A stretch of 64,000 bases of DNA. Source: Promicromonospora umidemergens. GTDB lineage: Bacteria > Actinomycetota > Actinomycetes > Actinomycetales > Cellulomonadaceae. The stretch is from the NCBI RefSeq assembly GCF_024171995.1, contig NZ_JAMTCT010000005.1, forward strand, positions 1 to 64,000, given 5' to 3'. Shown piece after piece: positions 1-29,119 of this stretch. The position numbers were made by a program, and so were the translations under genes. Below the pieces are notes generated by a model that was given only the letters and a program-made list of their open reading frames with translations, ran no database searches and was not told where the DNA came from. Positions within the stretch are counted from its first letter, which is position 1. The number at the start of each line of letters is the position of its first letter.

Positions 1-1119
<1,119 letters not shown>

Positions 1120-4106: not shown

Positions 4107-4135
4107 TCCCTCATGAGCAGCCATGGTGTCACCCG

Positions 4136-4299: not shown

Positions 4300-6219
4300 G
4301 TGAAGGATCGTGCGCCAGGCGTGGTGCGTCAGTTTCGTCGCGCGGCGTGGCACCTCCGGCAGGGCGGGCCTGAGCAGCTGCGCACGTTCCTGCGCCGGCA
4401 GCGGGTGCCCATGGCGGTGCAGACCGGTGGAGCACGGCTGACGAAGAACGGCCTGACGTTCGATCCGTGGCCGGCTCGTCCCACGTCCGGCACCGCGACC
4501 GGGGGCACGGTCGCCTCCGGCCGGCGAGACCTGCGCGTCGGCGTCATCCTGGACGACTTCTCCCGCCTGGCCTTCGCCTCCGAGTGGGACCAGGTGGACC
4601 TGACCCCGAAGAGCTGGCGTGACGAGCTCACGGAGGGTCTGGACCTGCTGTTCGTGGAGTCGGCCTGGAACGGCAACGGCGGCGCCTGGCAGTACCACCT
4701 GACGGGGACGTCGGCCCCGCGTCCGGCGTTCGTCGAGCTCGTCGAGGCCTGCCGCGCCGCCGGCGTACCCACGGTGTTCTGGAACAAGGAAGACCCGGTC
4801 CACTTCGACGACTTCCTCGACGCGGCCCGGCTGTTCGACCGTGTCTACACCACGGACGTCGATCGGCTGCCTGCCTATACCGAGGCGCTCGGTCATGACC
4901 GGGTGGGCGTGCTGGAGTTCGCCGCGCAGCCCGCCGTCCACAATCCCGTCCGGCTGCATGGGCGCGGGCCGGAACGTGACGTCGCGTTCGCGGGCATGTA
5001 CTTCGCGCACAAGTACCCGGAGCGGCGCGAGCAGATGGACCTGCTGCTCGGTGCGGCGCTGGACGTGTCGCCAAGGATGGAGCACGGCCTGGACATCTTC
5101 AGCCGGTTCCGTGGCAAGGACCAGAAGTACCAGTTCCCCGCGCCGCTGGACGGCCGCGTCGTCGGCTCGCTGGACTACGACCGCATGCTGACCGCGTACC
5201 GGGAGTACAAGGTCTTCCTCAACGTGAACTCCGTGGTCGGCTCGCCGTCGATGTGCGCACGGCGGATCTTCGAGATCACCGCCAGCGGCACGCCCGTCGT
5301 CTCGACGCCGAGCGCCGCGGTGGGGGAGTACTTCCCGCCCGACGAGGTCTTCGTCGCGAGCACCCGCGAGACCGCCGCGCACACGATCCGTGCGCTCGTG
5401 CGCTCCCCGGAGCTGCGCGACCACGCCGTGCACAAGGGCCAGCGCCGCATCTGGCGAGAGCACACCTACGGCGCCCGGTCGCAGAAGGTGCTGCACGACG
5501 CCGGGCTGGTCGCGTCTCCCGTCGTCCCGCGGCCGAGCGTGACCGCGATGGTCTCCACGAATCGGCCGCACCAGCTCGAGCACGTGCTGGCGGTGCTCGG
5601 TGCTCAGGAGGGCGTCGAGCTGCAGGTCGCGCTGCTGACGCACGGCTTCGACGTGGACGGCGCCGACCTGCGGGCGCGGGCCAAGGCAGCCGGCGTCGAG
5701 CGCCTCGAGCTGCTGTCGGCACCGTCTGACGTGCCGCTGGGCTCCTGCCTGAACCTGCTGCTGGAGGCGGCCGACGGCGACGTCGTGGCCAAGATCGACG
5801 ACGACGACCTCTACGGCCCGCACTACCTGTCCGACCAGCTCTACGCCATGGCGTACTCCGGCGCGGACGTGGTGGGCAAGCAGGCGCACTACATGCACCT
5901 CGAGGGCCCGGACACGACGATCCTGCGGTTCGCGGACCGCGAGCACCGGTACACCGACCGCGTGATGGGTCCGACGATCGTCGCCGGGCGCGAGACCGCC
6001 GCCTCCGTGCGCTTCCGTGCGCTGGCGCGGGGCGAGGACACCGCGTTCCTCGAGGACCTTGTCGAGGCCGGCGGGACGCTCTACTCCGCCGACCGGTTCA
6101 ATTTTGTCCAGGTCCGGTCCGCCGCAGGCGGGCACTCCTGGGATGTAGCCGATGCCGAGCTGCTCGCGAGCGGCGAGGTCAAGTTCTACGGGCGTGCGGC
6201 GACGCACGTCCTCTTCTGA
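4300..6219 (+). CDS. two-domain glycosyltransferase (CgeB/DUF3880-like GT-B plus GT2-like GT-A domain)
   Basis: About 639 aa. The first two thirds resemble CgeB-type spore-coat/teichoic glycosyltransferases: [57 protein letters not shown] and the closing [21 protein letters not shown]. The last third is a GT-A module beginning [12 protein letters not shown] with the metal-binding acidic run [17 protein letters not shown]. Both would act in the cytosol on the growing glycan. The frame is open from ATG 4195, but that codon overlaps the TAGCAT -10 box, so GTG 4300 at VKDRAPG is preferred; 4195 is the alternative (674 aa). Acceptor and donor are unknown. wecC follows after 11 bases. Confidence 0.8.
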
Positions 6220-6230
6220 GGCGGGGAAAC

Positions 6231-7484
6231 ATGGGGATCAGCACTGTCGGCGTGATCGGGCTCGGGTACATCGGACTCCCGACCGCGGCGATCCTTGCGG
6301 CGAACGGCGTCGCGGTGACGGGTGTGGACGTGAGTCCGACGACCGTCACCGCGGTGAACCGTGGCGAAGTGCCTTTCGTCGAGCCAGACCTGGCGGGATA
6401 CGTCGCGGAAGGGGTGTCGTCCGGGAAGCTTCGTGCGGTGGCAGCGCCCGAGCCTGCCGACGCGTACATCGTGGCCGTTCCCACGCCCTTCATGGGCGAC
6501 CACAAGCCCGACCTCTCTTACATCAGGTCCGCTGCGGAGGCGATCGCGCCCACGCTGCGGGGTGGTGAGCTGGTGATCCTGGAGTCCACGTCGCCGCCCG
6601 GGACGACGCGGCACATGGCGGACTGGATCCTGGCCGAGCGTCCTGACCTCAGCCTTGACGGCTCGGGCGGGCGGCCGGTCATCTATGTCGCGCACTGCCC
6701 GGAACGGGTGCTGCCAGGACGGATCATGGTCGAGCTCGTGACGAACGACCGGATCGTGGGCGGCATCACTCCGGAGGCCGCACAGCGGGCACGGGACCTG
6801 TACCAGGTGTTCTGCCAGGGCGAGATCCTGCTGACGGACGCCGCGACGGCCGAGGCAGCCAAGCTGGTGGAGAACTCGTTCAGGGACGTGAACATCGCCT
6901 TCGCGAACGAGCTGTCGCTGGTCGCGGACAAGCTCGGCATCGACGTCTGGGAGCTCATCCGGCTCGCCAACCACCATCCGCGGGTCAACATCCTGCAGCC
7001 CGGTCCGGGCGTCGGCGGGCACTGCATCGCCGTGGACCCGTGGTTCCTCGTGGACGCGGCGCCCGAGGAGGCACGCCTGATCCGGACGGCGCGCGAGGTC
7101 AACGACGCGAAGCCGCGCTGGGTGCTGCACAAGGTGCTCGACGCCGTCGCCGGGATCGAGTCGCCGGTGGTCGCCGCCTACGGGCTGGCGTTCAAGCCGA
7201 ACATCGACGACCTGCGGGAGTCGCCAGCGGTCGAGATCGTCCGCGACATGGCCGCGACGTTCCCCCAGGCGAAGGTGCTGGTGGTCGAGCCGCACGTCGA
7301 TTCGTTGCCGGCCGAGCTCGAGGGGTTCGACAACGTCCGGCTGGTCGAGGCAGAGGAAGCCCTCGAGGCGGGCGACGTCCAGGTGCTGCTCGTCGACCAC
7401 GCGGCGTTCCGTGGCCTGTCCGGCAGGCTGGTGGAGCAGCGGCTGGTGGACACGCGTGGGATGACGGCGGCAGGGCGCGTCTGA
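6231..7484 (+). CDS. wecC: UDP-N-acetyl-D-mannosamine dehydrogenase
   Basis: 417 aa NAD-dependent dehydrogenase oxidising UDP-ManNAc to UDP-ManNAcA. It shows GVIGLGYIGLPTAAILA at the N-terminus, VAVPTPF, ESTSPPGTT, the WecC-typical HCPERVLPG, KLVENSFRDVNIAFANEL, the catalytic cysteine in GPGVGGHCIAVDPWF, and the C-terminal LAFKPNIDDLRESPA. HCPERVLPG and the spacing fit WecC better than UDP-glucose dehydrogenase. wecB at 22855 in the same island makes its substrate. Its C-terminal coding region (about 7324-7421) has a diverged copy at 10094-10196. ATG 6231 lies 11 bases after the preceding gene, with GGCGGGGAAAC as a weak ribosome site. Confidence 0.92.
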   Translation: MGISTVGVIGLGYIGLPTAAILAANGVAVTGVDVSPTTVTAVNRGEVPFVEPDLAGYVAEGVSSGKLRAVAAPEPADAYIVAVPTPFMGDHKPDLSYIRSAAEAIAPTLRGGELVILESTSPPGTTRHMADWILAERPDLSLDGSGGRPVIYVAHCPERVLPGRIMVELVTNDRIVGGITPEAAQRARDLYQVFCQGEILLTDAATAEAAKLVENSFRDVNIAFANELSLVADKLGIDVWELIRLANHHPRVNILQPGPGVGGHCIAVDPWFLVDAAPEEARLIRTAREVNDAKPRWVLHKVLDAVAGIESPVVAAYGLAFKPNIDDLRESPAVEIVRDMAATFPQAKVLVVEPHVDSLPAELEGFDNVRLVEAEEALEAGDVQVLLVDHAAFRGLSGRLVEQRLVDTRGMTAAGRV

Positions 7485-7505
7485 CCAGGAGCGATGGCTG
7501 GACGG

Positions 7506-9938
7506 TCAGGCGGGTTCGAGGACAGCGGAAACGGTCTGTCCACGCGCGTCCAACAGGTCGACGACCAGCGTCGAGGTGGCCTGGTCGGGCTGTACCTGGA
7601 TCCGGGGGTCCGCCGTGATCACCCGACGGATGCGGTGGTCGAGCCCGATCCGGATCGTGCCCTGCACGGTCTGACTGGGGTCGCTGATCGCCACGGAGAG
7701 CCTGCTCTCGTCGCGGACGACTATCACGGACACCCTGGTACGTGCCGTGATGCCACCGACCGACTGCTCGTCCGTCGACCCGAAGCTGGCCGCTACCGTG
7801 TTTCCCTTGCGGACAGCCTGGAGCCCGAGCGTGTTGGAGAGGATGGTCACCGGGGGGCTCGCCGCGTAGCCGCTGACCGTCTCGGGTGATGCGCCCGGCA
7901 GCAGGACGTAGGCGTACCGGTCGCCCTGCGGCCCGCGACCGTGGTCGATGCAGAGCGTCAGGTAGTCGCGCCGGATCTCGCCGGGAAAGTCGAATGCCGG
8001 GTCCTGGTTGATGTCGGACCAGCGCCCGATCCGTGACTCCCGCGACGCGCGTACGCGCGCATCCGTCAGGAAGACGTAGCCGATGTCGGATCCCTCGACG
8101 GGACCCGTGAGGTGCGCCCAGCCCGGGCGGTCGAACGACCTGTTCATCGGCCCGGTCCCGAGACTGGCAGCGTCGACGAGGAACGGCTGGGACACGTCGG
8201 TGGAGAGCTTGCGGTTCTCGACGACCGTCTCGACGGCGCGGCCGGCAGGAGCGGTGATACCGGAGCCGAGCGCCACGATCTCGTCCCCGAGCAGGAACCA
8301 GGTCTTCCGGCCCGTCACGGTGGCGGGTGAGTCGACGGGAGTGCGGAACGCCATGGTGGCGAGCCCGAGGTGGCCGAGCGAGACACCACCGACCAGGGCG
8401 ACCGCGGCGAGCGCCTCCGCGTTGCTCCCGTCCGGAGGGCTTCCTGTGGGCACCGTCGTACCCGGGATGCGCGTGGCGTCCACCGTCGGCCAGTAGCCGT
8501 CGTCGAACTGGGCGAGGTCGTCGTCGTACAGGTACGTCGCTCCGCTGCCGGTCCACCAGCCGTGCAAGTTCTCGCTGTTGATCGCCTCATAGGTCGCGAT
8601 CCGAGACGACGACATGGCGATCGCGAAGGTGAAGCCCGGGCGCCGGTGCACCACGCGATCCATCGCGGCGAAGACCCTGGTTCCTCCTTCGGGGGGCGCG
8701 GCAAGTGTTTCAGAACGCAGCAGACGACGGGCAGCTGTGACAGCGGGCACGTTGTTGATGCCGAGGAAGGGTGTGAGCGTGTCCTGCTCGATGAGGTGGC
8801 GCGTGATGCCCGCCAGGACGCCCCGTCGTTCCGGCGGTGCGAGCTCGCCGAGTGCGAGGAACGCGCTCATCGCCACATGGCAAGCATTGTGCTCGGTGGC
8901 CGACCGCCGCGAGATCTCCCGGCCGCGTACGGGACTGAGCAAGGCCCCCTTGTGCAGCCACGGCGCCACGCCGTCGACTGCGAAGTCCAGGAGAAAGTCG
9001 AACTTTCCGCTGTCGACCTGCCAGGGCGAACCGTGCAGCAGCTCGACGAGGCGCACAGAGCTCCTGAGGAACGAGGTTCCGTACCCACCGGTGTACGGAT
9101 GATTCTTGTGCTGGATGAACGAACCGTCGGGGTGGACGCCGTCGCCTGACGTCACGGTGTGGAGGGCACGCTGCAGACCTTCGCGAGCCATGTCGAGCTT
9201 GGCACCCTCATCGAGGAGGATCGCGCGCTCTGCCACCACCTGAGCGGTCCACACCAGGTTAGCCCCTGCCTTCGACGGCGCCGGCGTGAATGAGTCGACG
9301 GTGGCCAGGTACCGTTCGAGAAGGTCTCTTGCCAGGTCGTCGCGCAGCAGCAGGCAGATCGAAGTCAGCGCGAGCGGTACGCTGATCTCCCGGTCGTACC
9401 AGTTCTCGTCCTGGGCGGCTCCAAAGCTTTCATAGCGCTCGTGCAGCAGGTCGAGACTGCCGAGGAGGCTGGATCGCAGGCCGGGATCGCGGTACATCGT
9501 GGTGCCGGCCGTCCCGTAGGCAAGGACGACGGAGCTGAGGCGGTCCGCCGTGTGGCGCAGTGCGATGGCGCGGTCGCGGCCCGTGCCGTCGAGCGGAAGA
9601 TCCGGCCAGAGGCCCGTCCGGTCTCCGCGGGGGGACATGTCGGCTCGGGCGTTCCGGGCCGCGGCATCGACGCCGTCGACCGCCCGGGCGTTCTCGGGCA
9701 CGGACAGATCGATGTCACCGCCGGTGAGCTGGGTGTACCAGCGGCCGCGCAACCGTGCGTACGGGGTCGTCCCGTGGGCCTCGGCGGGTGGTGCCAGGCT
9801 CCTCGTGGGACCTGCCTCGCTCTGGCGCAGAGACGTCACACCGACACCAGCGACGACGACGAAACCACCCACCAGCAGCAGCTGCCGGCGACCAAGAATC
9901 ATGCGGCGGTGGGGCTTCTCGTCATCGGTGGGGTGCAT
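7506..9938 (-). CDS. exported polysaccharide lyase family 8 (hyaluronate/chondroitin/xanthan lyase-like)
   Basis: 810 aa. The N-terminus GRRQLLLVGGFVVVAGVGV looks like a Tat signal or membrane anchor. The middle carries the PL8 alpha/alpha-toroid signatures: NLVWTA (catalytic Asn), DGSFIQHKNHPYTGGYG (catalytic His and Tyr), then the beta domain with INSENLHGWWTGSGATYLYD, where the family has its N-x-E-N-x-x-G-W motif. PL8 enzymes cleave glycans next to uronic acids by beta-elimination outside the cell. It is antisense to its neighbours, alone inside the biosynthetic island, and separates wecC from a wecC remnant. Substrate could be the island's own uronic-acid polymer or an external glycan; sequence alone does not decide. 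ATG 9938 is used; a TATCCT box lies just upstream. Confidence 0.85.
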   Translation of the reverse strand: MHPTDDEKPHRRMILGRRQLLLVGGFVVVAGVGVTSLRQSEAGPTRSLAPPAEAHGTTPYARLRGRWYTQLTGGDIDLSVPENARAVDGVDAAARNARADMSPRGDRTGLWPDLPLDGTGRDRAIALRHTADRLSSVVLAYGTAGTTMYRDPGLRSSLLGSLDLLHERYESFGAAQDENWYDREISVPLALTSICLLLRDDLARDLLERYLATVDSFTPAPSKAGANLVWTAQVVAERAILLDEGAKLDMAREGLQRALHTVTSGDGVHPDGSFIQHKNHPYTGGYGTSFLRSSVRLVELLHGSPWQVDSGKFDFLLDFAVDGVAPWLHKGALLSPVRGREISRRSATEHNACHVAMSAFLALGELAPPERRGVLAGITRHLIEQDTLTPFLGINNVPAVTAARRLLRSETLAAPPEGGTRVFAAMDRVVHRRPGFTFAIAMSSSRIATYEAINSENLHGWWTGSGATYLYDDDLAQFDDGYWPTVDATRIPGTTVPTGSPPDGSNAEALAAVALVGGVSLGHLGLATMAFRTPVDSPATVTGRKTWFLLGDEIVALGSGITAPAGRAVETVVENRKLSTDVSQPFLVDAASLGTGPMNRSFDRPGWAHLTGPVEGSDIGYVFLTDARVRASRESRIGRWSDINQDPAFDFPGEIRRDYLTLCIDHGRGPQGDRYAYVLLPGASPETVSGYAASPPVTILSNTLGLQAVRKGNTVAASFGSTDEQSVGGITARTRVSVIVVRDESRLSVAISDPSQTVQGTIRIGLDHRIRRVITADPRIQVQPDQATSTLVVDLLDARGQTVSAVLEPA

Positions 9939-10008
9939 CAACGTGCGAGGATACCCGGGGCTCGGGGCGTTCAGGTCTCGGCGAGCACGCAGTCACCCGA
10001 CATCCGGG

Positions 10009-10067: not shown

Positions 10068-10093
10068 CGTGCGGAGCCGGACCAGCCTGCAAA

Positions 10094-10196
10094 GTTCGAT
10101 AGCGTTCGGCTGGTCGAAACCGGGGAAGCGCTCGAGTGCGGCGATGTCCAGGTGTTGCCGGTGCCATACGGCCTTCCGCGGCCTGGACCCAGAACG
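10094..10196 (+). pseudogene. remnant of a wecC-like dehydrogenase C-terminus
   Basis: In the plus frame this reads FDSVRLVETGEALECGDVQVL, against FDNVRLVEAEEALEAGDVQVL in wecC (coding bases about 7324-7390). The nucleotide match runs about 100 bases at roughly three quarters identity by eye, with a 2-base length difference near its 3' end. No start or upstream domain is present. It lies immediately before the tandem GT2 gene. It is therefore a fossil of a second, diverged dehydrogenase or of a duplication of the wecC end. Confidence 0.7.
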
Positions 10197-10213
10197 GAAG
10201 CAGGAGAATCTTG

Positions 10214-13153
10214 ATGGGGACTCCCGGATCACGGGACGAGCAGACACCGCTCTTGTCGGTCGTAGTGCCGGTCTACGGGGTGGAGAAGTACCTGGACGAC
10301 TGCTTGAACAGTATCGTCCGTCAGGGGATCTCGCAGGAGATCATCGTGGTCGTCGACGCGTCGCCAGACCGTTCGGTCGTCGTCGCGCGGGAGTTCGAGG
10401 CTGCGTACGACGAGGTCAAGGTCGTGGAGCTGCCCGTGAACGTGGGGCTGGGCGCTGCTCGCAACGTCGGCCTCGGCCAGGCCAGGGGCAAGTACGTGAC
10501 CTTCCCGGACAGCGACGACATCGTCGCGCCGGGGGCGTACGCGGCGCTCGTCGCCTCGCTCGAGCGGTCCGGGTCGGACTTCGCGACCGCTTACGCGGAC
10601 GAGTTCGGCGCGTCGGCGGGCCGTCGCCGGTACTGGACCACGCGGCCGGCGGTGTACGACACGGGAGCGGAAGGTGCGACCCTTGCCGACCTCCCCGAGC
10701 TGGTGTACGACCACACCGCCTGGACCAAGGTGTTCCGGCGGGAGTTCCTGCTGCGTGAGGACATCCGGTGGCCGGAGGCCACCAAGTGCGAGGACGTCGT
10801 GCCGTCGATGCGCGCCTATGCGAGGGCGACGGCTTTCGACGTGCTGCCCCTGTGCATGTACCTGTACCGCCGTCGGCCGGGGTCGATCACGACCGGGTTG
10901 GCGTCGTCCCGGACCATCCTGGAGTGGGCGGTCCAGGTCCGAGAAGCTCTCCGCGTGGTCAAGGGCGTCGACGTGCCCGAAGCGGTCCAGCTCTTCGTCG
11001 AGAAGGTGCTGCGTTACGAGGTCGCCTCGCGGATCAAGGCATTCGCCACGGTCGACGGCGAGGCACGGTCGATCGCTGAGACGCTCGTGGTGGAGCTGCT
11101 CGAGGCGAGCGACACCGACACCTTGCGCAGGGTCCCGGCCTCGACCCTGACGGCGGCACTGGAGCTCCTGGCCGGCCCCGGGCCGGACGTGCGGCACGAC
11201 GGGCTGCCGGTGGCGCTGCTCGAGGTGCTGTGCCTGACGGCCGACGAGCCCGCCGTGGCCCAGCCCGCGTCCGAGCGCGTGACCCCCGGCTCCGCCCCGG
11301 CGCAGCAGGGGCCGATGGTCTCGGTGGTCATGCCGACGTTCGACGTCGACCCATGGGTCGACGCGTGCATCCGCTCCGTGCTGGAGCAGACGATGGGCGA
11401 CCTCGAGCTGATCGTCGTGGACGACCACTCGACGGACGGCACGTGGGAGAAGGTCCTCGAATGGGCTCGCCGGGACCCCCGGGTGGTGCCGGTGCGCAAC
11501 CCGGGCAGCGGAGGTGCGCAGGCCAGGAACGCGGGACTGGAGCTGGCCGCCGGCAGGTACGTCATCTTCTGCGACGGCGACGACCTCGTGCCGCGGCACG
11601 CCTACCGCTCGCTCCTGGACCTTGCGGAACGTAGCGGGGCCGAGGTGACCGTTGGCGGTTTCCAGCGGGTGTGGACCTCGTCGACCTGGAGCGACCCCAA
11701 GATGTACGGGTTGGACCGCCGGCTCGACCGGACGACGCTCGACCTCAACCCCCGTCTGATCCGAAACCGGACGTGCTGGAACAGGCTGATCCGCAGGGAG
11801 TTCTGGGTCGAGCACAAGCTGCACTTCCCGACCACGCCGCGCGGCAACGACATGCTCCCCATGACCGCGGCGATGCGACTCGCGCGGAGCATCGCCGTGA
11901 CGCCGGAAGTGGTCTACCACTACCGTGCGCGGCCCGGTGGAAGCTCGATGACGGCGCGGCTCGGCGATGTGCGGTCGCTGATCGGCTACTTCGTGCAGGA
12001 ACGGCTCTGTGCGGTGCTGGTGGCGGACGACGACAGGAGCGTGCTCGCACGCGAGTACTGGCATGCGGCGCTCGGCTCCGACGCCTGGGCGACGCTCGGG
12101 AAGCTGATGCAGGACGGGGTGGACCATCTTCCCAAGGACGACCGTGCGGCCGTGTCGGACGCCGTCGCCGGGCTCGTCTCCCTGGCACCCTTCGAGGCGC
12201 TGGAGCGGATCGGCGCGCGGCGCGCGCTGGTCTTTCACCTGGCCGCGCACGGTCACCTGGACCAGGCGCGCGTCGTCTGGGAACGCGAGGTCGGCAAGAG
12301 AGCCAGTGGCACGTCGGCCACGATCTCGGCACTGGCCGAGGCTCTCTCGACGGCCATGGCCGACGGGATCGACCGGCGCCTGGTCGGAAAGGTCTGGCGG
12401 GACGACGTGATGCGCCCGTTCATCGATGTGTCCCACGCCTGGGACGGCGAGCTCGCCGAACGCATGATGGTTCTCGCGGGCAGGATCGATCGAGAGGTCC
12501 CGGTACGTGCGACGGTCACCCCGGCGACGAGGGAGGTGCGCGTCGCGGAGGCCCTGCTGCAGGGGGAGCTGAACGACGTCTGGCGGGAGGCCCAGCGCAA
12601 CCCGTACAAGTATCGGCCGAAATTCGCCGCCACGGTCGCGGGGGTGCGGGGCCGCGTGGTGCACCTCGAGGGAAGTGGGCCCGTCCGCTCAGGTGTGCGG
12701 GTGCTCCGTCTCGAGGCGCTCGGCTCAGTGGGCAAGCAGAGGGACGTGCACAGGCGGCGGCTCTTCGGCAAGGTAGCGGTGAACGAGACGGGATGGTCCG
12801 TCGACGCCGATCTCGCGGCCCTCGAGCCGGGGTACGACTGGCGGCTTCGAGTGATGGTCGAGGACGCGTTCGGCGAGCTGGAGCTGCCGCTCCGCATCGA
12901 ATGGCCGGGTGGGGCCTCGGCGCTGAGCGTGGTCCGGCCCATGAGGCTCGCGGACGACCAGCAGATCGGGCTGCGCACGTTTGCCTCCGGAACCGCACGG
13001 GTCGCCACGGCTGCTCGCTGGCGCGGCGTCTGGGTCGGCCGTCGCGCCAGAAAGCTACGGGTCTACCGCGCCGTCGAGTGGCGCATCCTGCGCGCCCGCA
13101 AGATCCGCAAGAAGGCCGCACTGCAGAAGGCGTCTCGGAGGGACAGTGCCTGA
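10214..13153 (+). CDS. tandem family-2 glycosyltransferase (two GT-A domains)
   Basis: 979 aa. Domain 1 (about residues 13-230) starts LSVVVPVYGVEKYLDDCLNSI with GLGAARNVGL and the metal site FPDSDDI. Domain 2 (about 368-590) starts VSVVMPTFDVDPWVDACIRSVLEQ, then IVVDDHSTDGTWEKV, QARNAGLELAAGRY and FCDGDDLVP. Each has the nucleotide-binding and DXD-type residues of an active GT2. The last 250 residues are not recognised and end in a very basic tail (RKIRKKAALQKASRR), possibly a membrane-interface contact. ATG 10214 has AGGAG at 10202-10206. Two active domains are typical of enzymes that add alternating sugars, but donors are unknown. The pyruvyltransferase-like gene follows after one base. 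Confidence 0.85.
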   Translation: MGTPGSRDEQTPLLSVVVPVYGVEKYLDDCLNSIVRQGISQEIIVVVDASPDRSVVVAREFEAAYDEVKVVELPVNVGLGAARNVGLGQARGKYVTFPDSDDIVAPGAYAALVASLERSGSDFATAYADEFGASAGRRRYWTTRPAVYDTGAEGATLADLPELVYDHTAWTKVFRREFLLREDIRWPEATKCEDVVPSMRAYARATAFDVLPLCMYLYRRRPGSITTGLASSRTILEWAVQVREALRVVKGVDVPEAVQLFVEKVLRYEVASRIKAFATVDGEARSIAETLVVELLEASDTDTLRRVPASTLTAALELLAGPGPDVRHDGLPVALLEVLCLTADEPAVAQPASERVTPGSAPAQQGPMVSVVMPTFDVDPWVDACIRSVLEQTMGDLELIVVDDHSTDGTWEKVLEWARRDPRVVPVRNPGSGGAQARNAGLELAAGRYVIFCDGDDLVPRHAYRSLLDLAERSGAEVTVGGFQRVWTSSTWSDPKMYGLDRRLDRTTLDLNPRLIRNRTCWNRLIRREFWVEHKLHFPTTPRGNDMLPMTAAMRLARSIAVTPEVVYHYRARPGGSSMTARLGDVRSLIGYFVQERLCAVLVADDDRSVLAREYWHAALGSDAWATLGKLMQDGVDHLPKDDRAAVSDAVAGLVSLAPFEALERIGARRALVFHLAAHGHLDQARVVWEREVGKRASGTSATISALAEALSTAMADGIDRRLVGKVWRDDVMRPFIDVSHAWDGELAERMMVLAGRIDREVPVRATVTPATREVRVAEALLQGELNDVWREAQRNPYKYRPKFAATVAGVRGRVVHLEGSGPVRSGVRVLRLEALGSVGKQRDVHRRRLFGKVAVNETGWSVDADLAALEPGYDWRLRVMVEDAFGELELPLRIEWPGGASALSVVRPMRLADDQQIGLRTFASGTARVATAARWRGVWVGRRARKLRVYRAVEWRILRARKIRKKAALQKASRRDSA

Positions 13154-13154
13154 G

Positions 13155-14672: not shown

Positions 14673-14673
14673 C

Positions 14674-17789: not shown

Positions 17790-17837
17790 CCTCTGACGGC
17801 GTCGTTGCTGGGGTGCGGTCTCGGGATGCGGGGGCGG

Positions 17838-19675: not shown

Positions 19676-19678
19676 TGG

Positions 19679-21149: not shown

Positions 21150-21154
21150 GGGCT

Positions 21155-22858: not shown

Positions 22859-24051
22859 GCCCCACCCTCTGCGGAAACTACCGTGAATTGTTCGTCCACC
22901 AGATCGAAGTCCGGGAGCACGTCGGGCAGCACGGGCGTGAGCATCCGTGCTGTCGCGTCCAGGACCCGTCCCGCGCTGTGCCCGTCACCGTACGGGTTGA
23001 CGGCCTGCGCCATGGCGGCATAAGCCTTGTCGTTCGTCAGCAGCCGGTTCACCTCGGCGACGATGCGGTCCTCGCCGGTGCCGATCAGCCGGGCGGTGCC
23101 GGCCTCGACCGCCTCAGGACGCTCGGTGTTGTCCCGCATCACCAGCACCGGCTTGCCGAGGCTCGGCGCCTCCTCCTGGAGGCCGCCTGAGTCGGTGAGC
23201 ACCACCGTGGACAGGGACAGCAGGTGCGTGAACTCGCCGTAGCCGAGCGGCTCGGTGACCGTCACGTTGGGCAGCCCCTCGAGGTGCGGCAGCACGGCGT
23301 CGCGCACCACCGGGTTGCGGTGCACCGGCAGGACGACCTCGGAGTCCGGGAACCGCCGGGCGATCCGCGCCAGCGCGCGGCCCACACCCTCCATGGCGTC
23401 GCCCCAGTTCTCCCGTCGGTGGGTCGTCACGAGCACGACCCGGCGGCCCGACGCCGCGACGCGGGCGAGCGCGGGGTCCGTGAACACCGTCCGGCGCTCC
23501 ACGGCCAGGTAGAGGGCGTCGATGACGGTGTTGCCGGTCACGACGATGTCGTCGAGCGGGACGCCCTCTGCCACGAGGTTGGCGAGGCTCCGCAGGGTGG
23601 GAGCGAGGTGCAGCGCCGCGATCTGTGACGTGATCTTCCGGTTCGCCTCCTCCGGGAACGGCGACATGATGTCCCCGCTGCGCAGGCCGGCTTCGAGGTG
23701 GATCACCGGGATCTGCTGGTAGAAGGCGGCGAGCGCGGCGGCCGTCGAGGTCGACGTGTCCCCCTGCACGATGACGGCGTCGGGCCGGCGTGCCTTCAGG
23801 ATCGGGTCGAGCCGCGTCATGACGCGAGCGAAGATCTGCCCAAGGGTCTGCCCGTGGCTCATGATGTCCAGGTCGTGGTCCGGCACGATCCCGAAGACGT
23901 CGTTGACCTGGTCGAGCATCTCCCGGTGCTGGCCGGTGACGACGGTCAGCGAGTCGAACCGGTCGTCGGCCTCGAGAGCCGCTACGACCGGGGCGACCTT
24001 GATGGCCTCCGGGCGGGTCCCGTAGACGGTCATGACAAGGGGGCGGTTCAC
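22855..24051 (-). CDS. wecB: UDP-N-acetylglucosamine 2-epimerase (non-hydrolysing)
   Basis: 398 aa GT-B fold epimerase interconverting UDP-GlcNAc and UDP-ManNAc, the substrate of wecC at 6231. Signatures: TVYGTRPEAIKVAPVV at the N-terminus, VTGQHREMLDQV, QGDTSTSTAAALAAFY, HLEAGLRSGDIMSPFPEE, VLVTTHRRENWG, and the C-terminal TDSGGLQEEAPSLGKPVLVMR. Active-site Asp, Glu and His residues are within these blocks. Length is normal. The gene overlaps its neighbours on both sides by four bases, placing it in one operon with the ABC exporter. Confidence 0.95.
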   Translation of the reverse strand: MNRPLVMTVYGTRPEAIKVAPVVAALEADDRFDSLTVVTGQHREMLDQVNDVFGIVPDHDLDIMSHGQTLGQIFARVMTRLDPILKARRPDAVIVQGDTSTSTAAALAAFYQQIPVIHLEAGLRSGDIMSPFPEEANRKITSQIAALHLAPTLRSLANLVAEGVPLDDIVVTGNTVIDALYLAVERRTVFTDPALARVAASGRRVVLVTTHRRENWGDAMEGVGRALARIARRFPDSEVVLPVHRNPVVRDAVLPHLEGLPNVTVTEPLGYGEFTHLLSLSTVVLTDSGGLQEEAPSLGKPVLVMRDNTERPEAVEAGTARLIGTGEDRIVAEVNRLLTNDKAYAAMAQAVNPYGDGHSAGRVLDATARMLTPVLPDVLPDFDLVDEQFTVVSAEGGA

Positions 24052-25175
24052 TGGTCGCCCACCTCAGCCCGCAGGGCGGCGGCACGTGCGGCCGTCGCCC
24101 TTGCCTGCTTGGCGTCGCGCCCCTTGGGCCGCGCATGCCGCTCCCGCACCGGCCCCTTGGGTGGTTCGGGCGTGTCGAACCGCACCTGTGTCTCCCGTCG
24201 TTCTGCGAAGGCGTCCTCGAGGACCTGCTTCGCTTCCTCTGGCTTGTCCTTCGCGTAGGCCCATGCCCACTTGCGATACCGCACAGCGACGTCCTGCGCC
24301 TCGCCGTCGAGCACCAGGCGACCGTGGTGCAGCCAGATGGCGCGCGTGCAGGACTCCTCGATCGTCTGGGCCGCGTGGCTGACCAGGAACACCGTTCCCG
24401 CTTCCTTCCGTAGCCGCTCCATACGGACCTCGCTGCGCTCCTTGAAGGCGGCGTCGCCGGTGGCCAGGGCCTCATCGATGAGCAGGATGTGCGGGCGCGC
24501 CGCCGTCGCGATGGCGAAGCGCAGGCGCGCCGCCATGCCCGAGGAGTAGGTCCGCATGGGCAGATAGATCGACTTGCCGAGGCCGGCGAGCTCGATGACG
24601 TCGGGGATCGCGGCCTGCGCCTCGGCGGGGGACAGACCCATCGCCAGGCAGCCGAGCCGCACGTTCTCCTCACCGGGCAGGTCGGGGACCAGCGCGGCGT
24701 TCACGCCGATGAGCACCGGCGTGCTCTCGGCAAGCACCTGGCCCTTGGTGGGCTTCTCGAGGCCGGCGATGATGCGCAGGAGCGTGCTCTTGCCGGAGCC
24801 GTTCTGGCCCACGATGCCGATCTGCTCGCCGGAGTTCGCGACGAACGAGATGTCCGTCAGGGCGCGCACCGTCACCTTGGCCTCCTGGCCGAGCACGTTG
24901 AGCACCGCCCGCTTGAGCTTGGCGCGGCGGCCACGGGTCGCGTCGGTGGACGGTGTCCGGTAGAACATCCGGAGGCCTTGCACCGCCACCGTCGGCCACA
25001 GCACAGGAGTGCTGCCCGACCGAGGTGCGACCGCGGCGACCTGCCCGGTGTGCGGCGGGGCCTGCACGGACATGGGTACCGCCCCGGAGAGCGGGCCCTG
25101 GACGGGTACCGGCATCGAGGCCGGACCGCCCTGACCGAGCTGTGCGGGCATCGGGTAGTCGAGGTCAGCGGCCAT
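24048..25175 (-). CDS. polysaccharide/teichoic acid ABC exporter, ATP-binding subunit (TagH/Wzt type)
   Basis: 375 aa. A Pro/Gln-rich N-terminal extension of about 60 residues precedes the ATPase: Walker A GIVGQNGSGKSTLLR, the signature TYSSGMAARLRFAIA, Walker B ILLIDEALATGD, and LVSHAAQTIEESC with the switch His. The TagH/Wzt group is recognised by YSSGM and by the DEALATGD form. The C-terminal ~80 residues are basic and Ala-rich and lack a clear Wzt carbohydrate-binding domain. It pairs with the permease at 25165, overlapping it by 11 bases. Together they export the lipid-linked glycan across the membrane. Confidence 0.9.
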   Translation of the reverse strand: MAADLDYPMPAQLGQGGPASMPVPVQGPLSGAVPMSVQAPPHTGQVAAVAPRSGSTPVLWPTVAVQGLRMFYRTPSTDATRGRRAKLKRAVLNVLGQEAKVTVRALTDISFVANSGEQIGIVGQNGSGKSTLLRIIAGLEKPTKGQVLAESTPVLIGVNAALVPDLPGEENVRLGCLAMGLSPAEAQAAIPDVIELAGLGKSIYLPMRTYSSGMAARLRFAIATAARPHILLIDEALATGDAAFKERSEVRMERLRKEAGTVFLVSHAAQTIEESCTRAIWLHHGRLVLDGEAQDVAVRYRKWAWAYAKDKPEEAKQVLEDAFAERRETQVRFDTPEPPKGPVRERHARPKGRDAKQARATAARAAALRAEVGDQ

Positions 25176-26064
25176 AGCTCTCCTCCGCTCGCCAGAAGGT
25201 GACGAACCCGATCACCAACATGCCCACCGCCCAGCCGCCGAGCCACACCCAGCGCATCGGGTCGGGCGTGGTGGCGTACAGCGCGCAGTCCCGCACGATG
25301 TCCAGCACGATGAACATCGGGTTGGCCTCGAGCACCATCTGCATCTCGGGCTCGTCCTTGAGGAGCGTGTCGAACGAGAAGAACACGGCCGACGCGTACA
25401 GCCAGATGCGCATCGACATCCTGATCAGGTTGGCGACGTCCGGCAGCGCCGCAGCCCACCGGGCCACCAGGAGCGACAGCCCCAGGGTGAACATGATCTG
25501 CAGCACCAGGGCGGCAGGCACCAGCGCGAGGCGCCAGGTGTACTCCTCGGCAGGGCCGATGAAGTAGATCAGCACGGCCAGCGTCACGAGCGTCGGGCCA
25601 AGGTTGAGCAGGTTGCGCAGCACCACCGAGATCGGCAGCGCCGCCCGCGGGAACGTGAACGCACGGATCAGGTTCTTGCCGGTCTGTACCGACCGCGCGC
25701 CGCCGTTGATCGACGACGTGGTGAACTGGAACAGGAACACCCCGATCAGCAGGTACCCGATGAAGTTCTCGATGCCGCGCGCGTTCTTCATCAGCAGGCC
25801 GAACACCAGGAAGTACACCCCGCCGTTGATCAGCGGGTCCAGGATCAGCCAGGCCTTGCCGAGCAGGCTCTGCCGGGTACCGCTGGCCACCTTCGCCCGG
25901 GCGTCCGCCCACAGGAAGTGCCGGCGCTCCCAGAGCAGCTCGATGTACTTCCCCAGCGGGGGCCGGGCACCGACGCGCGACAGGTTGCCGAGCGTCACCA
26001 GCTTGGTGGTCGTCGGCGACGCGTCGAACAGCGCCGAGTACGACCCGGTCTCGGGACCGCTCAT
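25165..26064 (-). CDS. polysaccharide/teichoic acid ABC exporter, permease subunit (TagG/Wzm type)
   Basis: 299 aa ABC-2 permease with about six membrane segments, including GGVYFLVFGLLM, YLLIGVFLFQFTT, LGPTLVTLAVLIYFI and LVPAALVLQIMFTLGLSLLVA. The family's amphipathic segment SGTRQSLLGKAWLILDPLI near residue 65 is typical of TagG/Wzm. ATG 26064 overlaps the preceding stop (ATGA) and has GGGGGTG upstream; a longer start at 26124 is open but less likely. It works with the ATPase at 24048. No Wzx or Wzy is seen in the window, so the polymer is probably finished in the cytosol before export. Confidence 0.9.
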   Translation of the reverse strand: MSGPETGSYSALFDASPTTTKLVTLGNLSRVGARPPLGKYIELLWERRHFLWADARAKVASGTRQSLLGKAWLILDPLINGGVYFLVFGLLMKNARGIENFIGYLLIGVFLFQFTTSSINGGARSVQTGKNLIRAFTFPRAALPISVVLRNLLNLGPTLVTLAVLIYFIGPAEEYTWRLALVPAALVLQIMFTLGLSLLVARWAAALPDVANLIRMSMRIWLYASAVFFSFDTLLKDEPEMQMVLEANPMFIVLDIVRDCALYATTPDPMRWVWLGGWAVGMLVIGFVTFWRAEESYGR

Positions 26065-27809
26065 GCCGGCACCCCCAGGCAGGTTCGGTAGATCCCCAGA
26101 TACGTCTCCGCGTTTCGCACCCATGTCCTCTCGGCTGCTACCACTCGGCCGCGCTCGACGAGCTCGGCGCGCCGACCCACATCTTCAAGGAGGGCGCCGA
26201 CCGACGTGGCCCAGCCCTCCGCGTCGTCGGCCCCGACGTGCAGTCCCGCACCACCCACCGCCTCGACCAGGGCCGGGAGGTCGCTCGCGACCACCGGACG
26301 ACCCACCGCCATGGCCTCGACGGGCTTGAGCGGCGTCACCAGGCGCGTGACCTCGTGGTCGCGGCGGGGCACCAGCACGACGTCCAGCGCGGCCAGCCAG
26401 GTCAGCGCGACATCGGACGGTACCCGCCCGGGAAGCACCACGTGGTCGGCCACGCCCAGCTCGCGCGCGAGGCGCGCGAGACCTGGCCGCGAGACGCCGT
26501 CGCCCACCAGCACACCCGTCACGTCGTGCCCGCGGGCGCGCAGCGTCGCCACCGTCCGGACCACCGTCTCCAGGCCCTCGTAGTCGACCAGGCTGCTCAC
26601 GGTGCCGATCGCGGGTCCAGCGGGCAGACCCAGCGCTGCCCGTGCGGCCTCCGGCGCCGGGTGCTCGGTGGTGAGCAGGGCGTCCGACACGGCGTTCGGC
26701 ACCACGGTGATGCGCTCCAGGGGCACACCTCGTGCGACGAGGGCGTCGCGCATGGTGCCGCTGAGCGTCACCACGGCGTCGGCGGCGAGCGCCAGCTCGG
26801 TCTCCTTGGCCTGCATCAGGGCGCGACGACGCGACGCCGCAGCGCGGGCACGGCCCTCCGTCGTGCCGTGCGAGGCCACCCAGGTCTCCTCGGGCAGGCC
26901 GCGTACCTCGTAGACCCAGGGGATCCCGAGCCGCCGCGCCGCCGTCCGGGCCAGCACCCCGTTGGCCGACGGCGTCGTGGTGTGCAGGACGGAGGCACCC
27001 GCCTCGCGGGCGGCCTCGGTCAGCAGCTCTGCCTCCTGCGCGGTGCGCCGCGCGACGTCGGGCAGCAAGCGGCTCGGGACGAGACGCTGATAGGCGGCGC
27101 CGTCCACGACGTCGGTCCCACGTGCCGTGAGCGACCCGATGGTCAGCGGGTAGCCGGGCCGTGTCGTCGCGGACGCGCGCAGCCCGCCGGCGCGCTGCGC
27201 CACCAGGATCGCGTGCGAGCGGAGCGTGTATCCGCTCTGCGTGTGCGGCAGGGAGTTGGTGAGGTGGTGCAGCACGGTGATGCCGCCAGGGCCGGTGGGC
27301 CCGGCCGGTGCCGGCTCGGCGCCGCGGGCCTGGTGGGCACGACCGCTGGCGTCGTCCTGCGGCCCGGGCTGCAGCACAGCCACCTGCGCGCGCAGCCCGG
27401 CGGGCGCGTCCGGCCCGATCGACTCGGTGTCGCCCAGCAGCCAGGCAGCGCGGTAGCGCGCGGGACCGGCGCCGTCGACGCCGTCGAGCAGGTCGGGCCG
27501 ACCCACCGCGACGGCGACCTCGGCCGCGACCCGCAGGCCACGACCGTCGCGGCGAGCGAGCAGCTGCTCTGCCTCGTCGGCGGCACGGGCGGTGTCACCC
27601 GCGAGCATGCGGCCCAGCGCGTGCGGGGCGGACGGCGTCGGCGTGAGCCCGAGGGCGCGCACGAGTGGCCGGCGCAGCGGCTCCGGAGCTCGCCGGGCGG
27701 TCTGGACAGCGAGCCAGACCGGGTCCTCGACGAGAGTCCTGGCGACAAAGGACGTGGTGAAGCGCAGGTTGCGCGCGAGCTCGCCCGCGCGCCGCAGCGA
27801 TGGCGCCAT
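26061..27809 (-). CDS. family-4 glycosyltransferase with N-terminal extension
   Basis: 582 aa. The first ~180 residues are Ala/Arg-rich, without a recognised domain and with repeat-like helices. The GT-B enzyme follows: ITVLHHLTNSLPHTQSGYT and VLHTTTPSANGVLARTAA in the acceptor half, then NAVSDALL, GTVSSLVDYEGLETVVRTV, LPGRVPSDVALTWLAALDVVLVPR and the donor motif TPLKPVEAMAVGRPVVASD, which holds the E-x7-E-like loop. It is cytosolic and acts before export. It overlaps the permease by four bases and its start abuts the stop of the 27809 gene. Sugar specificity is unknown. Confidence 0.85.
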   Translation of the reverse strand: MAPSLRRAGELARNLRFTTSFVARTLVEDPVWLAVQTARRAPEPLRRPLVRALGLTPTPSAPHALGRMLAGDTARAADEAEQLLARRDGRGLRVAAEVAVAVGRPDLLDGVDGAGPARYRAAWLLGDTESIGPDAPAGLRAQVAVLQPGPQDDASGRAHQARGAEPAPAGPTGPGGITVLHHLTNSLPHTQSGYTLRSHAILVAQRAGGLRASATTRPGYPLTIGSLTARGTDVVDGAAYQRLVPSRLLPDVARRTAQEAELLTEAAREAGASVLHTTTPSANGVLARTAARRLGIPWVYEVRGLPEETWVASHGTTEGRARAAASRRRALMQAKETELALAADAVVTLSGTMRDALVARGVPLERITVVPNAVSDALLTTEHPAPEAARAALGLPAGPAIGTVSSLVDYEGLETVVRTVATLRARGHDVTGVLVGDGVSRPGLARLARELGVADHVVLPGRVPSDVALTWLAALDVVLVPRRDHEVTRLVTPLKPVEAMAVGRPVVASDLPALVEAVGGAGLHVGADDAEGWATSVGALLEDVGRRAELVERGRVVAAERTWVRNAETYLGIYRTCLGVPA

Positions 27810-29119
27810 CAGTACCGTGCCCCTCGGCCGGGGCCCTCAGCAGTCAGGGGGTGGGGGAGCAGCTCGTCCAGCAGCTCGGAGTAGCGGTGGCCCAGCACCG
27901 CGTCGCTCGCGTGCCCCGCGACCCAGGTGGCGGCGTCGGGCGAGGCGGCGGGCACGACCCCGTCGGACAGCCAGCCGCACCACAGGTCGGCGAGGCCCTC
28001 GACGTCGCCGGGGCGCACGACGGCGCCCGCGCCGTTCGCCGCGACCAGGCTGGCGGCCTCACCGGCGAGGCACGCCGATGCGACGACGCCGGACGCCATG
28101 ACCTCGTACAGCTTGGACGGGACGGTCCATTCGAATGGCTCCCAGTCCCGCAGGGAGACGATCACGCTGTCGGCCCAGGCGTACAGGTCGCGCACCTCGG
28201 TGGACGGCACGGAGGGCTCGACGCGGACCGGCGCGTCCAGCTCGGCCGCCAGGAGCCGCAGCGGCTCCAGCTCGTTGCCGTGTCCGACGATGCGCACGTC
28301 GAGCGCGTAGCCGCGCGCCTGGACCAGTGCCGCGGCGCGTACCGCGACGTCCAGGCCCTGCGACCGGCCGACGGTGCCCGCGTAGACGACACGCAGGGGG
28401 CGACCCGCCAGGGCGACGGGAGCGTTCTCACGGACGGGTGCGAACGCGGTCCCGTTGCGCACCACTGCCACGTTGCGGACGCCACGCGACCGCAGCACCT
28501 CCGCGAACGCGGCGGTGGTGGTGACCACGAGGTCCGCTCGGGCCTGGAGGCGGGTGACGGTGCGGTGCACCGCGCGCGCCGCGAGGTCACGCAGGCCGCG
28601 ACGCAGGTCGCCGCTCCGTCCCCGGCGCAGCAGGATGCCGCTGGGCTGGATCAGGTCCGGCCAGGCGTCGCGCATCTCGACGACGAAGCTGGCCCGGTGC
28701 CAGCGGGCGAGAGCCCAGCCGGCGACGACGCTCGGGATTCCGGGGACCGTCGCGATGACGACGGCCGGCCGGCCCGTAGGGGACCGGACCCCGCGCAGCA
28801 CCGAGCTCACGGCGGCAACCATCTGGTCCACGGCTCGCGAGCCCAGGCCATGGGAGTGCTCGCGGTAGTTCACCCGGATGATTTTTTCCCCGTGGTCCCC
28901 GGAACTGACTGATCCAGGCAGGTGGTCAGGTGAAAGGTGGGTGATCTTTCCCGAAGGGTAGTGCGGCGGAGGTGTGAGAACGGTGAGGGGATATCCGGCT
29001 GGGACCAGGTGGCCGGCCAGTGCTCCCCAGCGCCGCTGGGGTGCCCCCGACTCGGGCGCATAATGGTGTGTAACCAGGAGAATCGTGCGGTTCTGCGAGT
29101 TCTTTGCGCGAGCGATCAC
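27809..29119 (-). CDS. family-4 glycosyltransferase (WbuB-like)
   Basis: 436 aa. N-terminal HHYAPESGAPQRRWGALAGHL is the typical start of WbuB/WcaI-type GT4 enzymes; EMRDAWPDLI and NGTAFAPV follow, then VYAGTVGRSQGLDVAVRA and the donor loop WTVPSKLYEVMASGVVASA. GTG 29119 is chosen because GAGGAGG sits six bases upstream in the mRNA and the conserved LLVTHHYAPE then begins at residue ~15; the frame is open to 29332 without supporting signals. It appears to be the first gene of the minus-strand operon running to 17838 and is divergent from the LCP gene at 29241, so the 29120-29240 gap carries both promoters. Confidence 0.87.
   Translation of the reverse strand: MIARAKNSQNRTILLVTHHYAPESGAPQRRWGALAGHLVPAGYPLTVLTPPPHYPSGKITHLSPDHLPGSVSSGDHGEKIIRVNYREHSHGLGSRAVDQMVAAVSSVLRGVRSPTGRPAVVIATVPGIPSVVAGWALARWHRASFVVEMRDAWPDLIQPSGILLRRGRSGDLRRGLRDLAARAVHRTVTRLQARADLVVTTTAAFAEVLRSRGVRNVAVVRNGTAFAPVRENAPVALAGRPLRVVYAGTVGRSQGLDVAVRAAALVQARGYALDVRIVGHGNELEPLRLLAAELDAPVRVEPSVPSTEVRDLYAWADSVIVSLRDWEPFEWTVPSKLYEVMASGVVASACLAGEAASLVAANGAGAVVRPGDVEGLADLWCGWLSDGVVPAASPDAATWVAGHASDAVLGHRYSELLDELLPHPLTAEGPGRGARY

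Follow-up and report, generated by a model that had tools for sequence, protein, structure and literature searches.

A candidate modular wall-glycopolymer locus with a sulfotransferase-type cassette in Promicromonospora umidemergens

The window, a stretch of 64,000 nucleotides from Promicromonospora umidemergens, contains what on balance is probably a modular wall-glycopolymer locus, in which a constant export-and-anchor frame surrounds an exchangeable middle cassette, here of the sulfotransferase type. The gene island lies where an earlier note had placed it, although the inventory given there was incomplete, since a polysaccharide lyase at 7506..9941 had been overlooked. Family scans were confined to the open frames between 2847 and 30311 (Pfam, 20 frames, including a reverse frame that was then discarded; NCBIfam, 19 frames), and yielded, together with motif and neighborhood evidence, the following features.

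100..4292, strand unassigned: rmlB, rmlC, rmlD, and rmlA (dTDP-rhamnose genes), left flank; rmlA equivalog TIGR01207, 470.7 bits
4300..6219, plus: glycosyltransferase, frame gene; Glyco_trans_1_2 domain and a weak C-terminal GT2 match
6231..7484, plus: WecC, UDP-ManNAc dehydrogenase, frame gene; equivalog NF008286, 587.3 bits (cut-off, 459)
7506..9941, minus: polysaccharide lyase of family PL8; PF02278, E 2e-74; PF08124, E 4e-56
10136..13153, plus: protein with two GT2 domains, cassette gene; family and PDB matches
about 13149..14672, plus: polysaccharide pyruvyltransferase-like protein, cassette gene; PF04230 (PS_pyruv_trans), 45.5 bits versus 25.3
14665..15735, plus: GT4 glycosyltransferase, cassette gene; family match
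15732..17789, plus: sulfotransferase-like protein, cassette gene; motif and homology, second (C-terminal) domain copy degenerate
17838..18617, minus: SGNH-like protein A; IAGNSH motif
18614..19675, minus: GSCFA protein; PF08885, 162 bits
19679..20503, minus: SGNH-like protein B; 41% identical to protein A
20472..21206, minus: sulfotransferase (Sulfotransfer_3); PF13469, 55 bits versus 27
21155..22858, minus: DUF6270 domain fused to a sulfotransferase domain (C-terminal half); Pfam
22855..24051, minus: WecB, UDP-GlcNAc 2-epimerase, frame gene; TIGR00236, 459.9 bits (cut-off, 210)
24048..25175 and 25165..26124, minus: Wzt and Wzm, ABC-2 glycan exporter, frame genes; PF00005 and PF01061 over cut-off
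26061..27809 and 27809..29332, minus: two GT4 glycosyltransferases, frame genes; family matches
29241..30311, plus: LCP-family glycopolymer transferase; PF03816, 135.8 bits; TIGR00350 over cut-off

Among the rml genes only rmlA was family-tested, the names of rmlB, rmlC, and rmlD being taken from neighborhood and sequence; this flank adjoins the locus in those relatives whose flank was fetched. Start 4300 of the first glycosyltransferase was chosen within a frame open from 4195. The earlier inventory is otherwise largely borne out: wecB and wecC each score above an equivalog cut-off (TIGR00236 and NF008286), five glycosyltransferase proteins are present (4300 to 6219, 10136 to 13153, 14665 to 15735, 26061 to 27809, and 27809 to 29332), the permease and the ATPase of a Wzm/Wzt-type exporter exceed their Pfam cut-offs, and the neighboring LCP gene was found by both PF03816 and TIGR00350. 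Its product would likely act as a peptidoglycan ligase. In NCBIfam, Wzt and Wzm are matched best by TagH and galactan exporters, under the equivalog cut-offs, and the best PDB match of WecC is Cap5O.

The division into frame and cassette emerges from comparison across the genus. WecB, WecC, the exporter, the two GT4 proteins, and the LCP protein are kept in all nine other Promicromonospora loci, while the middle varies (identities to the window of 85 to 93% for wecB, 74 to 85% for wecC, 89 to 96% for wzt, 83 to 86% for wzm, and 81 to 87% for the LCP gene). The glycosyltransferase at 4300..6219 is 78 to 90% identical in eight of these loci, with a partial match of 36% in the ninth (G006), and DUF6270 likewise belongs to the frame, its fused sulfotransferase part being matched in six of the nine. 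The cassette genes dGT2, pyr, gt4a, STx2, and ST3, on the other hand, occur in two of the nine. Across the genus, the cassette in this slot is of the glycerol-phosphate, galactofuranose, methyltransferase, plain glycosyltransferase, or sulfotransferase type. P. sukumoe (G010), for example, has CDP-glycerol glycerophosphotransferase proteins with a cytidylyltransferase, P. iranensis UTMC 00792 (G003) has a UDP-galactopyranose mutase with a double GT2, and P. kroppenstedtii (G009) has an FkbM methyltransferase protein. In Promicromonospora sp. AC04, a cassette of the galactofuranose type stands next to one of the window type. The cassette family scan is partial for the G012 frames and for parts of G005, G008, G009, and G015, and overlapping weaker tblastn matches were removed before listing. 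G002 and G008 each have a second locus that does not enter the nine, and the genus counts leave out Myceligenerans (L069), G015, and G034, though each carries parts of the frame. A wecB of the window type (at least 84% identity) is found in 10 of 13 genus genomes; wecB-like genes of 47 to 51% identity elsewhere in five genomes were left out of this count.

This conservation bears on where ManNAcA resides. In the assembly of wall teichoic acid, as in that of teichuronic acid of the Micrococcus type, a UDP-ManNAc(A)-dependent linkage part and LCP attachment are combined with an exchangeable main chain; the present system differs in having no GT26 TagA/WecG and in a locus that includes sulfotransferases as well as a lyase. 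Since WecB and WecC are kept in all nine other loci despite the exchange of cassettes, the glycerol-phosphate type included, it is more likely that ManNAcA belongs to a shared linkage or adaptor part than to the repeat. The earlier description of the product as a ManNAcA polysaccharide is upheld as far as the presence of the two enzymes goes, whereas placement of the sugar in the repeat unit has become less likely. The same pattern could alternatively reflect ManNAcA in the repeat of every cassette. A sulfated, pyruvylated teichuronic acid with ManNAcA in its repeat, the version put forward in the earlier note, would agree with the position of WecB and WecC inside the locus and with the adjoining PL8 lyase, whose presence implies that the chain contains a uronic acid. 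We nevertheless consider it rather unlikely, given that both enzymes remain where the cassette is of the glycerol-phosphate or galactofuranose type and that further UDP-sugar dehydrogenase genes on contigs C10 and C26 of the same genome may put another uronate, e.g., GlcA, at hand. Transferases of the GT26 TagA/WecG family (PF03808) were found in none of the 13 genus genomes (control positive in 7 of 14), so that the ManNAcA step must be assumed to use another glycosyltransferase. Two initiator-type proteins (PF00953) are encoded in the window genome, and one of them is presumably MraY.

Within the cassette, the double-GT2 protein is a probable repeat-building glycosyltransferase; among the genus loci, G001 and G002 are the only ones to match it at 80% identity or above. 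Its first domain is best matched by GalT1, and chondroitin synthase 2z86 matches only residues 386 to 495 (E 4e-17). A glycosaminoglycan synthase, as double GT2 plus PL8 might suggest, was therefore not adopted: just part of the second GT2 fits chondroitin synthase, and WecC is of the UDP-ManNAc type. The pyruvyltransferase-like protein that had been claimed exceeds the PF04230 cut-off with a partial match (profile positions 95 to 276 of 280) and is the sole match to this family at E <= 0.001 in the window genome; the G001 homologue is spread over two frames.

Three sulfotransferase-type proteins had been proposed, and two of them (20472 to 21206 and 21155 to 22858) are above Pfam cut-offs, while the third (15732 to 17789) is recognized by motif and weak homology. 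The sulfotransferase domain fused to DUF6270 has as its best PDB relatives the bacterial sulfotransferase 3rnl and heparan sulfate 3-O-sulfotransferases; the protein at 20472..21206 has no meaningful PDB relative by sequence. The third protein carries the loop HIGAPKTGTTSL, which we take to be the PAPS-binding loop. It has no Pfam or PDB profile match up to E 10; a blastp match at E 2e-7 leads to a protein whose own Sulfotransfer_1 score is just E 0.08, and alignment to the fused sulfotransferase domain with hhalign is weak (E 0.0006, probability 29%). It is conceivable that the sulfotransferase-like proteins are inactive or act on lipids or other molecules, leaving the window polymer unsulfated: sequence does not predict their substrate, the 15732-to-17789 protein is degenerate in its C-terminal half, and six of the eight Sulfotransfer_3 matches in the window genome lie outside the locus, sulfotransferase genes being common in the genus (13 of 13 genomes). 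We regard this as unlikely, because three such genes stand amid glycosyltransferase genes in a glycan locus, P. panici has a second locus with four further motif-bearing genes (only one with a Sulfotransfer_3 match, below cut-off), PAPS genes are present, and, according to a review, the genus has a sulfated wall glycan (PMC6801904). Of the earlier proposal, an ABC-exported glycan locus with sulfotransferases is backed by the exporter, the LCP gene, and the sulfotransferases found there; anchoring by the LCP protein is probable, and sulfate on the product is predicted.

Three to four SGNH/GSCFA-like proteins had also been claimed. We count four, of which Pfam backs the GSCFA protein and DUF6270; SGNH-like proteins A and B had no Pfam match in the scan and, judging from their identity of 41%, are paralogues. 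Protein A was not found in the nine other genus loci, and DUF6270 would be SGNH-like from its motifs. The GSCFA family belongs to the SGNH clan; according to a review, the function of none of its members was known as of 2022.

The PL8 lyase has a twin-arginine-like N terminus (GRRQLLLVGG), suggesting that it is probably secreted. Its best solved relative is xanthan lyase 2e22 (E 5e-142), with which it shares full-length homology and conserved Asn, His, and Tyr, which we take to be the catalytic residues. Arg313, Tyr315, and Arg612 of xanthan lyase are, on our assumption and numbering, the residues that bind pyruvated mannose; in the alignment to 2e22, the window enzyme retains the first but has Ser and Asp in place of the other two. 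With two of three residues altered, the substrate of xanthan lyase is not implied, and we doubt a xanthan-type substrate. PL8 genes lie inside the locus in exactly 3 of 10 genomes, namely, those with the window-type cassette, and in two different arrangements (Fisher p 0.008, ignoring relatedness; three related genomes are a small sample). The lyase might instead be an unrelated catabolic gene located here by chance, as PL8 genes of G005 and G009 adjoin, by eye, apparent sugar-uptake genes. These two lyases, however, form a distinct group (32 to 37% identity), whereas the in-locus lyases are 77 to 82% identical to one another and accompany all three cassettes, and we hold a chance location to be a minority possibility. 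The G008 lyase, 42% identical to the window enzyme by tblastn, was left out of the PL8 identity table.

As the earlier note had recognized, PAPS synthesis genes are absent from the window and PAPS would have to be supplied from elsewhere; CysD, CysN, and CysC, with a CysQ-like gene, were found on contig C12, where their neighbors are a synthase of the NeuB type and a second exporter. The sole APS kinase and the sole CysD found in the window genome are these. APS kinase is present in 13 of 13 genus genomes and CysD is matched in all 13 (12 over cut-off), and CysC lies within 10 kb of NeuB in every one. As no genome has a second CysD over the cut-off, sulfate activation may also serve assimilation. 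The C12 NeuB exceeds the Pfam cut-off but stays under the equivalog cut-offs that NCBIfam sets for Neu5Ac and pseudaminate; the fused phosphatase scores below the Kdn-9-phosphatase cut-off, and the second Wzm falls just short in Pfam (24.9 versus 26.9). A further C12 protein had no sulfotransferase match in Pfam up to E 10 or in NCBIfam, so its name as sulfotransferase-like comes solely from neighborhood and from a motif that we assume to be a sulfotransferase motif.

These genes fit a polymer already reported for the genus: P. citrea 665T has a sulfated, pyruvylated Kdn teichulosonic acid (Dmitrenok et al. 2017, as cited in the review PMC6801904). The earlier remark that sulfated wall polymers are rarely reported in Gram-positives holds in general, but one such glycan is published for Promicromonospora. 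Our literature search found no genes assigned to this polymer, for which C12 is the likely source and supplies candidates that an APS kinase gene accompanies genus-wide. The window itself might be thought to make a polymer of this kind, as sulfate and pyruvate are shared decorations (PMC6801904) and the sole pyruvyltransferase match of the genome lies in it. We rejected this reading as highly improbable, since the sole NeuB match is on C12, beside a CMP-sugar synthetase-like gene and the second exporter, and since NeuB occurs in 13 of 13 genomes, three of them devoid of a window-type wecB. The window is thus probably a second, accessory wall-glycan locus, C12 being the other.

For the modular locus favored here, the following route can be proposed. 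A polyprenyl-phosphate sugar-phosphate transferase encoded outside the locus would begin the chain, and the conserved glycosyltransferases would use UDP-ManNAcA from WecB/WecC to build the common linkage or adaptor part. The genes of the cassette slot, between wecC and DUF6270, would then supply the repeat, through the double-GT2 protein and the GT4, and its acidic groups, through the pyruvyltransferase and the sulfotransferases, with PAPS coming from the CysDNC genes of C12; acyl groups would probably be added or removed by the SGNH/GSCFA proteins. Wzm/Wzt would export the finished chain, the LCP protein would join it to peptidoglycan, and the secreted PL8 lyase may trim or release this uronate-containing chain. 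It is tempting to speculate, though only tentatively, that Promicromonospora has two sulfated wall polymers: an ancestral nonulosonate (Kdn) polymer with PAPS genes in its locus and, as an accessory that can be exchanged, a uronate polymer resembling glycosaminoglycans, the cassette of which supplies a PL8 lyase of new specificity, with one PAPS module feeding both and a ManNAcA adaptor that takes glycerol-phosphate, galactofuranan, or sulfated chains.

Several described systems share parts of this arrangement. The P. citrea polymer resembles the predicted product in genus, wall location, sulfate, and pyruvate, and differs in its Kdn-glucose backbone, with genes likely on C12; Promicromonospora sp. 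VKM Ac-1028 has a pyruvylated glucuronic-acid wall polymer, for which the review text available mentions no sulfate and names no genes (PMC6801904). The unsulfated teichulosonic acid cluster SCO4873-SCO4882 of Streptomyces coelicolor (PMC13011467, citing Ostash et al. 2014), likewise an actinomycete wall-glycopolymer cluster, is expected to resemble C12; sulfotransferase or PAPS genes are not mentioned in the accessible part of that source. The wps-1 cluster of Actinoplanes missouriensis, needed for sporangia, also combines sulfotransferases (two, of different families) with a glycan-degrading enzyme, but uses a Wzx/Wzy pathway and GH26 where the window has an ABC exporter, LCP, and PL8; sulfate in its product was not shown chemically, as far as the available text goes (PMC13390465). 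Pontiella sulfatireligans has a gene cluster for a sulfated glycosaminoglycan-like exopolymer, similarly with PF13469 sulfotransferases among GT2/GT4 genes, yet it belongs to the Kiritimatiellae and its exopolymer is not wall linked as in a Gram-positive (PMC7356697).

Sulfated polysaccharides are generally regarded as rare in bacteria. The 2026 Actinoplanes paper, in the part available, calls sulfated bacterial polysaccharides exclusive to cyanobacteria, its own unproved case aside (PMC13390465), a view that contrasts with the chemically described Promicromonospora polymer (PMC6801904) and the Pontiella exopolymers (PMC7356697). The present locus suggests a second sulfotransferase cassette, one that can be exchanged and whose lyase would give a handle on polymer structure, and makes the question of sulfate in place of phosphate in Gram-positive walls testable in culturable strains.

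Base composition gives little reason to regard the cassette as a foreign island. GC3 of the cassette genes at 15.7 to 21.2 kb is 0.76 to 0.85, versus 0.84 to 0.93 for the frame, a mild lowering compatible with exchange, and the remaining cassette genes (PL8, dGT2, pyr, and gt4a), at 0.85 to 0.89, hardly differ from the frame.

Pfam scans of 20 open reading frames and NCBIfam scans of 19 bore out the outline of the polysaccharide island that an earlier note had read from the sequence: WecB, WecC, five glycosyltransferase proteins, a PS_pyruv_trans protein, an ABC-2 exporter pair and an LCP protein all lie where it had placed them. Two of its three sulfotransferase-type proteins pass the Pfam cut-offs, while the third (15732-17789) has no Pfam match even at E 10; motif reading finds the loop HIGAPKTGTTSL in it, and it is distantly homologous to other sulfotransferase-like proteins. 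The protein also carries a degenerate repeat of its own sequence (31% identity, E 3e-13): its second half is a decayed version of the sulfotransferase domain that lacks the nucleotide-binding loop. The homologues in genomes G001 and G002 are shorter. Among the SGNH/GSCFA-like proteins that the note had counted, one SGNH-type pair is recognizable by motif and mutual similarity only. About 190 residues precede the RmlA domain in the rmlA frame (2847-4292), whose true start may be internal, since matches in G005, G009 and G010 begin only at residue 187-189.

The locus was compared across 13 genomes, its own (G000) included and the 12 others (G001 to G012) labelled "same genus." A wecB of the window type occurs in 10 of them, being absent from G004, G007 and G011. 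All nine other loci keep wecB, wecC, wzt, wzm, both GT4 genes and the LCP gene at 74-96% identity (with the first GT4 matched in fragments in Promicromonospora kroppenstedtii, G009), and eight keep the first glycosyltransferase at 78-90%. The DUF6270 domain is found in all nine (42% in G006), and the sulfotransferase domain fused to it is matched in six. With this fusion as query, we retrieved eight loci from named genomes, seven from Promicromonospora (six genomes) and one from Myceligenerans pegani.

The genes between wecC and DUF6270 change from genome to genome. Those for the double GT2, pyruvyltransferase, GT4, third sulfotransferase and Sulfotransfer_3 proteins recur in two of the nine other loci (G001 and P. 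sp. AC04, G002), GSCFA and SGNH-B in one, and SGNH-A in none. The same slot holds two CDP-glycerol glycerophosphotransferase proteins and a cytidylyltransferase in P. sukumoe (G010), a UDP-galactopyranose mutase and a double GT2 in P. iranensis UTMC 00792 (G003), an FkbM methyltransferase protein in G009, GT4 and GT2 in P. panici (G008) and G006, and GT2 with a second DUF6270 in G005. This is how a locus looks in which the linkage, export and anchoring functions form a constant frame and the chain genes can be exchanged. Because the ManNAcA genes (wecB and wecC) stay while the cassettes change, conservation argues that ManNAcA would belong to the shared part of the polymer. GT26, the usual enzyme for a ManNAcA-type transfer step, is absent from all 13 genomes, and the step would therefore fall to one of the conserved glycosyltransferases.

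Two genomes carry more than one such arrangement. Most of the frame is duplicated on another contig of P. panici:
L022 (G008:C14:190001-210000), second frame copy with four sulfotransferase-like genes, GT61 and an RgpF-type protein
Of these four genes, Sulfotransfer_3 matches one below its cut-off and Sulfotransfer_1 another marginally; the remaining two are without a match. In P. sp. AC04, a sulfotransferase cassette and a UDP-galactopyranose mutase cassette with GT2 matches occupy adjoining loci (L014-L015, G002:C1:1000001-1040000), possibly an intermediate of cassette exchange. DUF6270 of the second locus (L070 10001-11863) runs into a region whose GT2-like matches are weak instead of a sulfotransferase, and its fusion partner may thus be exchangeable. 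The G001 pyruvyltransferase homologue (L016 12517-14044) spans two frames, because of either a genuine frameshift or an error in sequencing.

The genome search for cysD, cysN and cysC that the earlier note had proposed found all three on another contig, C12:
L077 190-19000, NeuB/ABC-exporter locus with CysC, TauE, CysQ-like, CysD and CysN genes
13240-14502, CysC
16641-17543, CysD
beside these, a TauE-type permease, a CysQ-like phosphatase and CysN
CysD, CysN and the kinase domain of CysC score above curated cut-offs, and the CysQ-like protein falls below its own (88.9 against 228.8). These genes adjoin a cytidylyltransferase-phosphatase, a NeuB-type synthase, glycosyltransferases, a second Wzm/Wzt pair (Wzm just below cut-off) and a sulfotransferase-like gene named from its motif only. 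In all 13 genomes, no more than 10 kb separate CysC from NeuB, and a similar sulfotransferase-like gene adjoins cysC in four of seven genomes examined (G000, G004, G011 and G012; none in G001, G002 and G010). A review describes the wall polymer repeat of P. citrea as sulfated glucose plus pyruvylated Kdn (PMC6801904). NCBIfam and Pfam models do not fix which nonulosonic acid C12 makes; the published P. citrea chemistry suggests Kdn. The gene set fits that repeat, making C12 a candidate locus for this polymer type, and the window therefore a second locus. A PS_pyruv_trans gene lies less than 4 kb from NeuB in nine of the 13 genomes; none lies within 4 kb in the own genome, where acyltransferase and CMP-sugar gene (L077 190-2526) are about 50 bases apart with no pyruvyltransferase match between them. 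In G004 and P. iranensis UTMC 3169 (G012), such a match sits between the two.

Pfam also revealed a gene overlooked in the earlier note:
7506-9941, opposite strand, PL8 polysaccharide lyase with a twin-arginine-like leader
PL8 genes occur in eight of the 13 genomes and lie within the locus in three, exactly those with the window-type cassette (Fisher p 0.008, uncorrected for kinship). Two arrangements occur: the window gene sits between wecC and the double GT2, and those of G001 and G002 sit upstream of the first glycosyltransferase. Among themselves, the in-locus proteins share 77-82% identity; identity falls to 43-44% against the G003 and G007 proteins and to 32-37% against the G005 and G009 proteins, and the window protein is 42% identical to that of G008 (tblastn). 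By eye, PL8 adjoins apparent sugar-uptake genes in G005 and G009, and in G003 and G008 some 3 kb separate it from sulfotransferase genes of apparently another polysaccharide locus; in G007 a pyruvyltransferase match lies no more than 1 kb away. The further polysaccharide-type locus with sulfotransferase genes (L083, G003:C30; L084, G008:C14; L088, G000:C6) showed no PL8 in the 12 kb of its own-genome copy. PL8 enzymes cut beside uronic acid, and the chain should therefore contain uronate; nucleotide-sugar dehydrogenases beyond WecC are present in the genome. The lyase keeps the catalytic Asn, His and Tyr but not two residues that we take to be pyruvate-mannose contacts.

Gene families, conservation pattern, PAPS genes and lyase residues are results read from sequence. 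From them we infer an assembly order for the chain; the window-locus polymer would be sulfated and pyruvylated, acyl-modified by GSCFA/SGNH proteins, trimmed by the lyase and linked to the wall. According to a 2022 review, no GSCFA member had a known function.

In itself, a sulfated wall polymer is nothing new for the genus. We found no report of an exchangeable sulfotransferase cassette plus lyase on a ManNAcA frame in the literature searched, whose scope excluded most subscription papers. The nearest published gene clusters found are wps-1 of Actinoplanes missouriensis, which comes without sulfate chemistry, and that of Pontiella, which belongs to another phylum. Sulfotransfer_3 and pyruvyltransferase matches neighbour each other, less than 7 kb apart, at yet another place in five of the 13 genomes (G002:C4, G006:C29, G007:C286, G011:C5 and G012:C3), and the sulfate-pyruvate pairing thus recurs.
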